Virus record (IMG/VR): IMGVR_UViG_3300025141_000647
Coordinates: 1-25,928 of that record
From: a virus
Length of the DNA: 25,928 nt
Strand: one strand, 5' to 3'
The notes below the pieces were generated by a model. The model did no database searches. It saw only the letters and a program-made list of their open reading frames with translations, and was not told the DNA's origin. Below, one piece after another: positions 22,559-25,230 of the stretch. Numbering within the stretch: the stretch's first letter is position 1; each line of letters begins with the position of its first letter. Position numbers and translations under genes: made by a program.

Positions 22559-22878
22559 TGTTTCAACTAAACTTTCTTAAGAAAGAGAATGATCTCAACA
22601 AGATCATCAAGAAGCAGAAAAGAGATAGGGGTAGAATAAATATCCTGTTTACCTCCTTATGGGACAAGCCTTCCCAGAGGTTAGTGGAAAAGTTAAAGGC
22701 GAAGTACTCCTCCAACAAGGAAGGAGACCCTCTTTATATTGTGGACAGTTTTAACATGCCTCATAGCTTTGTAATCTACAACACCACTAAGCTCCCGCAT
22801 CTCGTTAAGCTAAAGAGAGATCGCTACGAGTCTGATGATTACCTTAGCCATGTAATGAGACAGTTAAAAATTACATGA
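22558..22878 (+). CDS. Thioredoxin-fold-like protein lacking the CxxC active site
   Basis: 106 residues, start overlapping the previous stop by one base. After a basic N-terminus (1-25), the order RINILFTSLWDKPSQRLVEKLKAKY, then LYIVDSFNMPHSFVIYN, then KLPHLVKL resembles the beta-alpha-beta plus cis-Pro layout of thioredoxins: Trp35-Asp-Lys-Pro-Ser39 sits where WCGPC would be, and Met67-Pro68 where the cis-proline is. There is no Cys in the protein, so it cannot be a redox enzyme. A structural or processivity role is possible, as T7 polymerase uses thioredoxin as a non-redox clamp, and the phage polymerase gene lies 350 bases away. The fold is inferred by eye. Confidence 0.5.
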   Translation: MFQLNFLKKENDLNKIIKKQKRDRGRINILFTSLWDKPSQRLVEKLKAKYSSNKEGDPLYIVDSFNMPHSFVIYNTTKLPHLVKLKRDRYESDDYLSHVMRQLKIT

Positions 22879-23212
22879 AATCATCTTTTCGTTTTTCGAT
22901 GTAATTTTCAATCTTAATATTGTACTTCTTCTCCCGAGTATACATTAATTTTAGATTGTTTACTACTATTGTAGTAAAATAGTTGAAAGCTGTTCCTTTT
23001 CTTGGTTTAAAGTTCTTAACTGTCTTGAGGACCAAGGCGAAGCATTCTTGTTTTGCGTCATCTGGATCCACCTTGAACCTAAAAGATTCAATAATATTGG
23101 TGATCAACAAATCAAATAAAGAAACTAGCTTATCCTCATAAATTTCAGGCTCTTTCTGGTATGATAAGATGGTGCTTTCAAAGTCTTCGTTGTTGATGTA
23201 ATGATTTTTCAT
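22871..23212 (-). CDS. 55: Late-transcription sigma factor (T4 gp55-like)
   Basis: 113 residues on the minus strand. The N-terminus (YINNEDFESTILSYQKE) parallels gp55 YVNNKELLQAIIDWKTE. It is followed by a helical sigma region-2-like core: ITNIIESFRFKVDPDDAKQE, ALVLKTVKNFKPRKG, AFNYFTTIVVNNLKLMYTREKK, matching in order the gp55 segments KRFNFSGY...QEMIADGIEASIKGLHNFD...[20 protein letters not shown]. gp55 directs host RNA polymerase to late promoters consisting only of a TATAAATA -10 element. This version is shorter than T4's 185 residues and lacks an obvious C-terminal clamp-binding motif. It is convergent with the thioredoxin-like gene (8-base overlap) and only 14 bases from the divergent polymerase gene. 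Confidence 0.75.
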   Translation of the reverse strand: MKNHYINNEDFESTILSYQKEPEIYEDKLVSLFDLLITNIIESFRFKVDPDDAKQECFALVLKTVKNFKPRKGTAFNYFTTIVVNNLKLMYTREKKYNIKIENYIEKRKDDFM

Positions 23213-23215
23213 ACC

Positions 23216-23224
23216 CTATCATAG
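23216..23224. promoter_or_regulatory. Bidirectional late promoter-like element CTATCATAG between sigma and polymerase genes
   Basis: The whole spacer between the two divergent ATGs is 14 bases (23213-23226) and is almost filled by this near-palindrome. Forward, TATCAT is 4 bases from ATG 23227 of the polymerase; reverse, TATGAT is 5 bases from the sigma-factor ATG. Neither side has room for a usual ribosome site, so both mRNAs would be leaderless if it is used. Confidence 0.55.
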
Positions 23225-23226
23225 TT

Positions 23227-24264
23227 ATGTTTGAGTTAGATAATTTATATTCTGGTCACAAGACACACGGGGACAACCCCTTATGCTCTGGATGCACGAT
23301 TCTAAAGAAGAGCAAGGTGTGCCATTCCTTCATGGATTATGAGGAGCTAGATGAGTCTCCCGTTTTGTTTCTTTCAGACACCTTAAAGGACAGGCCCAAT
23401 AGCTTACTTCCGTTCACCCAGCAAGACATGAGGCTACTAAAGTCCTCGTATCCTGAGGCTTTTGCGTGTGCTGCGTCTGTGAAGTGCCCTTCTGTTAAAG
23501 AGGCAGACATGACACCTGACAATATGAAACTGTGCAGGGTCCATCTGGAAGCAACCATCGACAAAGTAAAGCCTAAGTTAGTCTTCCCTTGTGGGAATTT
23601 AGCAATGAAGATGCTCATTAAGAAGAGCGGCATCACACATAAACGAGGAAAATCCTATGAATTCACCACTCCTAATGGGCACTCTTGCATCGTTGTTCCT
23701 ATCCTTCATCCTTATTTTGTGGTTAAAGAGCCTAGACATAAATACTTATTCCAAACGGATGTCAGAAATGCGTATGAAAAATACATACTTGGCAAAACGC
23801 ACGAAGGAAAGTTCTCATACGAAACACTAATGAAGGTAGAGGATGTGGTGTCTTTAGGGAAAGAGCTAGAGCACAGTTCTGATACTCTTGCACTGGACAT
23901 TGAGACTACTGGACTCAACTTTAGAACCGATGACATTCAAACGATAGCAATCTCCTCTCAGGATAAGAACTGGGTCATTCCTTTGGACCATAAGGATAGC
24001 CCCTTTCGACAAGGCGCAGAAGACCAAGACCCTGATAATTATGGTAAGGTGTGGTCCAGCCTAAAGAAGATTCTAGAGAACCCCAAGAGCAAGAAAGTTT
24101 TCCACAACGCTAAGTTTGACCTTAAGTTCTTAATCAATTACGGAATCTACACTCAGAACGTATGGGATACCAAGGTCATGCACCACTTCATTGATGAGAA
24201 CCTTCCTAAGAGCTTGATGGATCTGGTTAAGCTTTACTTTCCGACCGAGCTTGAGAGTCTTTAA
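23227..24264 (+). CDS. Family A DNA polymerase, fragment 1: UDG-like Fe-S domain plus 3'-5' exonuclease (motifs I and II)
   Basis: 345 residues. Residues 15-185 look like a family 4-type uracil-DNA glycosylase domain: Cys20-x2-Cys23, then VKC (Cys87) and KLC (Cys103), four cysteines in the order and spacing (x2 then, after about 63 residues, x15) of the [4Fe-4S] ligands of family 4 enzymes, followed by a VKPKLVFPCGNLA strand and ILHPYF (His161-Pro162). The usual GEAPG active-site loop is not recognisable; LFLSDTLKD stands there. Residues 218-340 are a DEDD exonuclease with motif I LDIETTGL (Asp224, Glu226) and motif II FHNAKFD (Asp298). The frame stops just before motif III, which begins the next fragment 486 bases downstream. 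It appears to be a natural break caused by the inserted minus-strand gene. Confidence 0.85.
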   Translation: MFELDNLYSGHKTHGDNPLCSGCTILKKSKVCHSFMDYEELDESPVLFLSDTLKDRPNSLLPFTQQDMRLLKSSYPEAFACAASVKCPSVKEADMTPDNMKLCRVHLEATIDKVKPKLVFPCGNLAMKMLIKKSGITHKRGKSYEFTTPNGHSCIVVPILHPYFVVKEPRHKYLFQTDVRNAYEKYILGKTHEGKFSYETLMKVEDVVSLGKELEHSSDTLALDIETTGLNFRTDDIQTIAISSQDKNWVIPLDHKDSPFRQGAEDQDPDNYGKVWSSLKKILENPKSKKVFHNAKFDLKFLINYGIYTQNVWDTKVMHHFIDENLPKSLMDLVKLYFPTELESL

Positions 24265-24727
24265 GTGCTTCTTCTAGAGCAACAATCCTACTCTCATTAT
24301 GCTTCATAATTACATCCTGTTCATCGTCCCTTGCATCAATATCTGCTTGGGATACGGTGTTATGGATCTGACCAAATTTCTTAAACCAGTTCCGACCGTT
24401 CTTTCTGAAGAGGGGAAGGAACACAAAGAGGATTAACCACCAGTAGCCTAGCGTCTTAATTAATCCACCTGTCTCATGCAGCGTAGATGCCGTAGAGCCT
24501 TGAACTGGTCCTCCCGCCATTACTTGTCCTGCAATAGCAGTAGGGCTTGCAGAGGGGAAGATCATTTCTGTGACCACTACTCCCCCTGCTGCCCCTGCTG
24601 CGACCGCTGCTGGCTCTGGGATGAAGGCTGCGGTCAACCCACCACCCAAAGCTCCACCAACAGCGTGTTTGATTGTGCCACAACTGGACAGCGCGATTAA
24701 CATCAGTATGCAAATAAATATTCTCAT
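24227..24727 (-). CDS. Small lipoprotein with one membrane segment, inserted in the polymerase gene
   Basis: 166 residues on the minus strand, with AGGAG about 7 bases before the ATG. Residues 1-16 form a lipoprotein signal ending in a lipobox (LSSC, Cys16). Residues 20-80 are very Gly/Ala-rich. A hydrophobic segment at about 93-107 (TLGYWWLILFVFLPLF) is followed by basic residues and a charged, helical C-terminus (about 125-166). N-terminal lipid plus a downstream membrane helix is the layout of unimolecular spanins, the phage proteins that fuse inner and outer membranes at lysis, though the long charged tail is unusual. Other envelope roles are possible. The 3' end runs 38 bases into polymerase fragment 1, and it diverges from fragment 2. 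Confidence 0.65.
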   Translation of the reverse strand: MRIFICILMLIALSSCGTIKHAVGGALGGGLTAAFIPEPAAVAAGAAGGVVVTEMIFPSASPTAIAGQVMAGGPVQGSTASTLHETGGLIKTLGYWWLILFVFLPLFRKNGRNWFKKFGQIHNTVSQADIDARDDEQDVIMKHNESRIVALEEALKDSQARSESKA

Positions 24728-24735
24728 GATTACTC

Positions 24736-24748
24736 CTATTATATATAG
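24736..24748. promoter_or_regulatory. Bidirectional late promoter-like element between the lipoprotein gene and polymerase fragment 2
   Basis: CTATTATATATAG, a near-palindrome, ends 2 bases before ATG 24751; a TATATA hexamer (24740-24745) lies 5 bases from it, with no ribosome site. On the other strand TATAAT precedes AGGAG and the lipoprotein ATG. It is the third divergent spacer with the same kind of element. Confidence 0.5.
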
Positions 24749-24750
24749 CC

Positions 24751-25230
24751 ATGCTCACTATAGACAACCCTAGTAAATTTGACTGGGCCAATATGCCTCT
24801 ATCTGATTGCTGTGAAGGCAATGCGATGGATGCCTATTTTACTTTCAAACTCTTTAATCTAATCTGTGAAAAGATGGAGGGGCAACCTATGTTTAAATTG
24901 ATTGAGAAGATTGTTATGCCTTCACTAGAAACCTTTGCAGACATGGAGTACAACGGTTTAGATGTAGACCCTTCTGTTCTTGACGCTGTAGGGAGACAGT
25001 TAAACACAAAAAATATGAACGAGGAGGACTATCTGTACACCTGTAAGAGTGTAAAGAAAACGGACAACCTTTCCTCAAACAAGGATCTTATTGAGGTTTT
25101 ATATACTAGAGAGGGGGGGATGGAGCTATTCCCTCCTGACAAGACAGCGAGTGGAAAGCCTTCTGTTTCGGCTCCAACACTTAAATTACTTTTGGAACAT
25201 ATAGATGAGGAGTTAGCGTCCCGTGGGTAA
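24751..25230 (+). CDS. Family A DNA polymerase, fragment 2: exonuclease motif III and start of the polymerase domain
   Basis: 159 residues in the same frame as fragment 1. Residues 1-40 (KFDWANMPLS, then AMDAYFTFKLF, Asp27) carry the exonuclease motif III region missing from fragment 1; the usual Tyr four residues before this Asp is Gly23. Residues 50-75 (FKLIEKIVMPSLETFADMEYNGLDVD) match the conserved entry into the pol I polymerase domain (E. coli: PVLSRIERNGVKID), followed by helices of the thumb. It ends at TAA 25230, where fragment 3 continues one frame over. ATG 24751 directly follows a TATA element, so it may be expressed from its own leaderless transcript. It is not a complete enzyme alone. 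Confidence 0.8.
   Translation: MLTIDNPSKFDWANMPLSDCCEGNAMDAYFTFKLFNLICEKMEGQPMFKLIEKIVMPSLETFADMEYNGLDVDPSVLDAVGRQLNTKNMNEEDYLYTCKSVKKTDNLSSNKDLIEVLYTREGGMELFPPDKTASGKPSVSAPTLKLLLEHIDEELASRG
25207..25212 (+). promoter_or_regulatory. Ribosome binding site for polymerase fragment 3
   Basis: GAGGAG lies 10 bases before GTG 25223, the only start available between the in-frame stop at 25214-25216 and the conserved coding region. It sits inside fragment 2 coding sequence and favours true re-initiation over an accidental frameshift. Confidence 0.45.

Follow-up and report, generated by a model that had tools for sequence, protein, structure and literature searches.

A uracil-DNA glycosylase-like domain with a probable iron-sulfur site and eroded catalytic motifs on a family-A polymerase divided among three genes in marine phages

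Introduction

UDG-like domains, those with a resemblance to uracil-DNA glycosylases, are common at the N-terminus of phage family-A polymerases (PolA), and the locus described here raises the question of what such a domain contributes to a replicase once its catalytic loop has been replaced while its cysteines are kept. The locus lies in IMG/VR virus record IMGVR_UViG_3300025141_000647; "the window" denotes the whole stretch of DNA that was analyzed, 25,928 nucleotides, positions 1 to 25,928 of that record. A sequence-only reading had proposed a [4Fe-4S] UDG-like domain at the N-terminus of the phage polymerase and had offered a structural, uracil-sensing or redox-regulated role for it.

The phage group is marine, and the window also encodes a T4-like type tail sheath, head maturation protease and major head protein. 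The only high-identity match in genome collections was a 130,604-bp contig in a Prochlorococcus single-cell assembly, which a phage contig may have entered through co-sorting, and no cultured phage with gene 1 at 60% identity or above was found. In this contig (L091:12959-17437) the split polymerase is followed by SbcD-like, SbcC-like and ribonucleotide reductase large-subunit genes. Neither the cyanophage marker psbA nor PolB had a match in 11 related records, which carry one PolA and one UDG-like domain; a T4-type sliding clamp gave no match in a search that had no positive control. With a modified-thymine genome in mind, PF00303 (thymidylate synthase/dUMP hydroxymethylase) was also looked for; it had no match in the 11 records, which are possibly fragments, and ThyX is present in 6 of them. 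A ThyX gene lies near the polymerase in records L013, L050, L053, L072, L080 and L081, in several cases roughly 100 bases past the end of gene 3. A small divergent gene (22871-23212, minus strand) that directly precedes gene 1 scored 23.5 bits for sigma-70 region 2 against a threshold of 24.

Results

Gene 1 encodes a predicted family-4 UDG fold

The gene at the center of this study and its N-terminal domain are as follows.

23227-24264, plus strand: gene 1 (product P1, 345 aa), a UDG-like domain followed by the portion of a family-A polymerase 3'-5' exonuclease that carries exo I and exo II
23272-23796, plus strand: the UDG-like domain, residues 16-190 (VIA-align Z 16.0 to 4zbx; profile E 1.6e-13)

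A profile search against UDG families and a structure prediction, the two computational checks proposed with the sequence-only reading, both upheld the assignment. The Pfam UDG profile PF03167 matched P1 residues 75-171 with 29.7 bits, above its cut-off of 24.3, and the family-4 profile TIGR00758 matched with an E of 6e-10 and 39.1 bits, far under its curated cut-off of 125.3. Searched against the PDB, a 51-sequence profile of the group recovered the Sulfolobus family-4 UDG 4zbx (E 1.6e-13). The PolA exonuclease model PF01612 accounts for residues 209-341. An AlphaFold2 model of P1, built on the 51-sequence alignment (mean pLDDT 81.5, pTM 0.63), had 4zbx as its top VIA-align match over model residues 16-190 (Z 16.0, rmsd 3.3 A, 167 residues aligned), followed by other family-4 UDGs and UdgX at Z of about 14-15, and its residues 193-345 matched Klenow with Z 12.3. 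In a viral structure library the best matches were phage PolAs and several proteins of 313-372 aa, with most of the model covered. The alpha/beta fold of family 4 of the UDG superfamily is thus predicted for residues 16-190.

Conservation was read from 52 non-redundant IMG/VR relatives of P1 at about 50-78% identity. Mean pairwise identity is 0.74 in the UDG core (residues 84-188), 0.67 in the exonuclease part and 0.50 in the motif A stretch, and both R140 and G141 are kept in 52 of 52 relatives. This pattern suggests selection on the fold and its surface, and not on uracil excision or the active site.

The four cluster cysteines are retained

Family-4 UDGs carry a four-cysteine pattern, CxxC...C-x15-C, and P1 has it at the positions that had been read from the sequence (Cys 20, 23, 87 and 103).

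23284-23295, plus strand: Cys20 and Cys23 (CxxC; C-SG-C), proposed cluster ligands, in every relative covering the position
23485-23487, plus strand: Cys87, proposed cluster ligand, in 52/52 relatives
23533-23535, plus strand: Cys103 (C-x15-C), proposed cluster ligand, in 52/52 relatives

Cys20 and Cys23 occur in all 51 rows of the alignment that reach them, one more row being truncated at its N-terminus. Since the four residues recur in effectively all 52 divergent relatives, chance is not a reasonable explanation, and a [4Fe-4S] site is probably kept in P1; the proposed ability of the cysteines to form a cluster rests on a column-by-column alignment with an intact fused family-4 UDG. The C-x15-C loop and the lysines within it are highly conserved among the 52 relatives. 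A fifth cysteine, C122 (in CGNLAMKM; window 23590-23592), occurs throughout the group but in none of the other phage polymerases aligned.

The polymerases of SPO1, RcTiptonus, RHph_I4 and CherryonLim are without the cysteines. As SPO1 and other homologous phage polymerases of the UDG-PolA type keep the domain in this state, the cluster is not essential to the architecture in general. This bears on the earlier suggestion that the oxidation state of the cluster regulates the replicase, for which the conserved ligands are the only point in favor. Nothing specific was found in its support, the domain persists in SPO1, RcTiptonus and RHph_I4 after loss of the ligands, and we regard a redox switch as highly improbable.

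The catalytic motifs are eroded

The residues that correspond to the catalytic motifs of family-4 UDGs are listed below.

23374-23388, plus strand: residues 50-54 (S-D-T-L-K), replacing GEAPG (motif A), from alignment with intact fused UDGs
23413-23415, plus strand: Phe63, invariant, corresponding to the PF of the family-4 G-x-PF in the profile alignment
23473-23475, plus strand: Ala83, replacing the uracil-reading Asn, from alignment (role of the Asn from PMC10359453)
23707-23712, plus strand: His161-Pro162 (motif B), in 52/52 relatives

The late HP motif noted from the sequence is thus invariant, and Phe63 is also kept in all 52 relatives. The replacement of the GEAPG loop, likewise part of the sequence-only reading, holds for the whole group: the motif GE(A/G)PG is not found in it, and a conserved LSD(S/T) stands in its place, with D51 in 50/52 relatives, Ser or Thr at position 52 in 52/52 and a Ser before D51 in nearly all. 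Because an acidic residue, D51, occupies the position of the catalytic Glu, the motif was replaced and not deleted, and by alignment the loop has lost GExPG and been shortened. At the Asn position, four residues before Cys87, Ala is found in 43 of 52 relatives and Ser or Thr in most of the others. In UdgX, a family-4-like UDG, H178 and N91 bind uracil and E52 activates the nucleophile, and in its H109S form a change of the equivalent Glu to Asn lowers kcat/Km about 75-fold (PMC10359453). With the Asn gone and the Glu changed to Asp in a rebuilt loop, uracil excision is unlikely, and on these motifs the glycosylase chemistry of P1 has probably been lost.

Two rival explanations have to be weighed against this evidence. 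In the first, the domain is still an active glycosylase, with Asp51 standing in for the catalytic Glu. The near-invariance of D51 and the invariance of H161 speak for it, and family-1 UDGs do use an Asp; the loss and shortening of the GExPG loop, the loss of the Asn and the cost of the Glu to Asn change in UdgX H109S speak against it, and we consider this improbable. The second makes the domain a base-sensing module: on reading uracil or another base in the template, it would leave the base in place and stall or redirect the polymerase. The persistence of D51, F63 and H161 means that a base pocket may remain, several relatives have thyX a short way downstream of the polymerase, and a thymidylate synthase or dCMP deaminase gene is found beside many UDG-PolA genes. 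However, the residue that contacts uracil (N91 in UdgX, PMC10359453) is replaced by Ala, Ser or Thr in almost every member of the group, and few parts of the domain are conserved as poorly as the motif A stretch; together these leave base sensing rather unlikely. We also compared P1 with UdgX itself, which shares a family-4-like fold (Z about 14); UdgX was set aside as an identity for P1 on the grounds that its GEQPG is absent, with LSD(S/T) instead, and that the R-loop bearing the nucleophilic His is absent.

Fused UDG domains differ in what they retain

Gene 1 matches 323 phage records, some through the exonuclease part alone. SPO1 gp31 is a homologue of the gene 1 product, which bears out the link to the SPO1 polymerase drawn in the sequence-only reading. 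Solved family-4-like UDGs bear the name "Phage SPO1 DNA polymerase-related protein", and SPO1 is reportedly discussed in a survey of UDG folds by Aravind and Koonin. N-terminal fusion of a UDG to PolA has been described for PaBG gp205 and its group (PMC7412058), so this fusion is already known, and the present group is a version of it that retains the cluster residues without motif A.

Among the relatives, the PolAs of ctfzr933 (L083:2432-4846) and Thermus phage phiLo (L217:2429-5804) have an N-terminal UDG with complete-looking catalytic motifs: GEAPG, TN and HP are kept in both, as HPS in phiLo, and the UDG domain of ctfzr933 scores 181 bits with TIGR00758, above the cut-off. An enzymatically active UDG-polymerase fusion seems possible in these two phages, judged by their motifs, and the intact-looking domains make an active ancestor plausible. 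Serbin, PMBT14, Lebethron and LysYB1 have an altered motif A but still all four cysteines. Taken with the cysteine-less polymerases, the sampled UDG-PolA set shows, at the level of motifs, a graded erosion of the UDG domain. Separately, the PolIII alpha of Pseudomonas phage phiK7B1 (L218:1130-4522) has a UDG-like domain at its C-terminus, which places UDG folds on two unrelated phage replicase families.

P1 thus shares with family-4 UDGs (TIGR00758; 4zbx, 1ui0, 1vk2) the fold, the CxxC...C-x15-C pattern, the HP motif and the RGK strand region; it differs from them in the loss of GExPG and the uracil-reading Asn, in its fused exonuclease and in a score far below the family cut-off. With the PaBG gp205 group, SPO1 gp31, ctfzr933 and phiLo it shares a UDG fold N-terminal to a 3'-5' exonuclease and PolA, whereas SPO1 is without the cysteines and ctfzr933 and phiLo have the catalytic motifs.

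The polymerase is divided among three genes

The sequence-only reading placed the UDG domain at the N-terminus of the polymerase. The replicase context stands, but the polymerase is not one gene: gene 1 ends within the exonuclease domain, at 24264, so that exo II is still included and exo III is not, and two further genes encode the remainder.

23896-23904, plus strand: exo I, D224-x-E226, invariant
24106-24120, plus strand: exo II, N294-A-K-F-D298, with N294, K296, F297 and D298 invariant
24751-25230, plus strand: gene 2 (P2, 159 aa), exo III Asp27 and part of the thumb (NF004397 448-580; hhalign to contiguous phage PolA)
25223-25928, plus strand: gene 3 (P3, first 235 aa, the window ending inside it), palm/fingers (PF00476 2.8e-53)

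The motifs exo I, II and III and the thumb are named here in line with what is established for Pol I (Klenow). The same division is found across the group, with the UDG domain and exo I/II on gene 1, exo III and thumb on gene 2 and palm/fingers on gene 3. The Pol I profile NF004397 is tiled in order across the three genes (289-427, 448-580 and 569-782, respectively), as is phrog_17, and in a relative the full-length gene 3 matches PF00476 with 1.7e-80, covering the domain to its end. The exonuclease carboxylates are D224, E226 and D298 on gene 1 and D27, which is invariant, on gene 2, and the PolA palm (PF00476) is on gene 3; with exo I/II and exo III thus separated, the exonuclease site is encoded by two genes. 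In our alignment the Tyr position of exo III is Gly23 of P2. The structure model of gene 2 has a pTM of 0.33, and its best Foldseek matches, at E 0.6-2.5, are PolA chains; these matches are too weak to serve as proof, and the assignment of gene 2 is based on the profiles.

Junctions between genes 1 and 2 were counted in 68 loci, the window included, in which both genes were readable. The stop of gene 1 overlaps the ATG of gene 2 (TAATG or TGATG) in 37 of them, an in-frame TAG is followed directly by ATG in one, and in the other 30 an insertion of 151-2287 bp lies exactly between stop and start. Genes 2 and 3 overlap in different reading frames at the gene 2 stop, also in the window, with gene 3 starting on a GTG at -5 in 39 loci, an ATG at -1 in 16 and other arrangements in fewer; the frame relation of genes 2 and 3 varies between clades while the start codons persist. 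PolA as a single continuous reading frame is not found in the group. In all likelihood the polymerase is produced as three polypeptides, and we infer that these assemble.

Other causes of the split were considered and rejected. A group I intron, as in SPO1, had no Rfam match over the window; moreover, splicing would leave the split unexplained, because the pieces are out of frame even in loci with no insertion, and the insertions sit exactly between stop and start. Sequencing error is not compatible with the recurrence of the same junctions in 68 loci from many samples. Programmed frameshifting between genes 2 and 3 was discarded in view of an offset of -5, -1 or -20 depending on the set of loci, with the start codon and a Shine-Dalgarno (SD)-like site persisting.

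No unsplit close relative was present among the loci found, contiguous polymerases occurring in distant relatives only; one of these, L150, has an open frame of at least 825 aa encoding a contiguous polymerase that is 24% identical. The sampled phage Pol I fusions differ from the group in being single polypeptides (SPO1 with an intron), and our literature search found no paper on a three-part PolA. Like the present genes, the split polymerases of MEP401-type phages (PMC10580990) and the MIJ3 PolB with a split intein (PMC6892783) have a divided gene with one or more inserted ORFs. The group is unlike them in having three pieces, in having one break between exo II and exo III, and in showing stop/start overlaps without any insertion in more than half of the loci.

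The division also bears on a third rival, in which the UDG-like domain is a pure scaffold that stays off DNA and serves only the folding or assembly of the three-part polymerase. Three separately encoded pieces must assemble, and the UDG core is strongly conserved, as a scaffold would require. Yet unsplit phage polymerases also bear UDG-like domains, whose general purpose is therefore not the assembly of pieces, and the high conservation of the C-x15-C loop and its lysines is a second point against it; we judge this reading, too, rather unlikely.

The junctions carry insertions and start-codon elements

Three features of the window mark the junctions.

24227-24727, minus strand: inserted antisense gene (P4, 166 aa, lipoprotein-like N-terminus) between genes 1 and 2, its end overlapping the end of gene 1
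24737-24748, plus strand: TATTATATATAG element, a near-palindrome adjoining the gene 2 start and common to the divergent antisense gene
25207-25212, plus strand: GAGGAG, an SD-like sequence for gene 3 within gene 2; such a site is present in 36/45 distinct loci

What is inserted varies. The window and many relatives have an antisense lipoprotein-like gene, and elsewhere there are different antisense genes or genes on the plus strand; this variety points to the gene 1/2 junction as a repeatedly used insertion site. In the window and in L005, L012, L024, L030, L041 and L037 the inserts are several unrelated genes, mostly antisense; the types include lipoprotein-like, ESIWDTYR-type and NEEEILPFTLDYYSEF-type, the last a possible glycosyltransferase.

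An SD-like site for gene 2 lies inside gene 1 in 20 of 27 distinct uninserted loci and in 1 of 22 inserted ones. A TATnAT..AG element beside the gene 2 ATG has the opposite distribution (17/22 inserted vs 0/27 uninserted), occurs beside the gene 1 start in 54 of 57 and accompanies 1.9% of all plus-strand ATGs as background. In the window, palindromic TATnATAG-type elements adjoin the start codons of gene 1 (23217-23224) and the inserted gene 2 (24737-24748). Such elements are shared with divergent antisense genes and may give rise to leaderless transcripts in one or both directions.

Discussion

Our findings lead us to favor, at somewhat better than even confidence, the reading that residues 16-190 of P1 are a former family-4 UDG that now serves a phage family-A replicase as a DNA-binding module, with the cluster but without catalysis. 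In the proposed mechanism, the cluster would be present in P1 and hold a DNA-contact loop, and the UDG-like domain would bind DNA without excising uracil. The domain is joined covalently to the half of the proofreading domain that has exo I/II, and it might tether the polymerase to DNA, providing processivity, and/or help to hold the three polypeptides together. P1 and P2 would together form the exonuclease active site, and P2 and P3 the thumb and palm. We infer the cluster, the DNA binding, the processivity and the subunit assembly alike. The fuller picture, of three non-covalent polypeptides with a proofreading site completed across two of them and a retired Fe-S UDG module as a DNA clamp, is one that we put forward tentatively, as possible but doubtful.

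A DNA-holding module is favored because selection has kept the core and the C-x15-C loop, and because vaccinia D4 provides the best precedent of a catalysis-independent UDG fold in a viral polymerase complex. D4, which acts as a processivity factor with A20/E9, is a UDG whose part in the polymerase complex does not depend on catalysis (PMC1936997, PMC4450493). In contrast to the P1 domain, D4 is a family-1 enzyme without a cluster, is a separate subunit, is still catalytic and works with a family-B polymerase, so that for P1 it can serve as an analogy only.

If the favored reading is true, these bacterial viruses would parallel the poxviruses in employing a UDG as an accessory to their polymerase. 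The group would also represent a PolA that is naturally made in three pieces, and the positions of its breaks would show where in the enzyme a cut is tolerated. Finally, a comparison of versions that are intact (ctfzr933, phiLo), keep only the cluster (this group, Serbin, PMBT14) or have no cluster (SPO1) makes the role of UDG domains on phage replicases directly testable.
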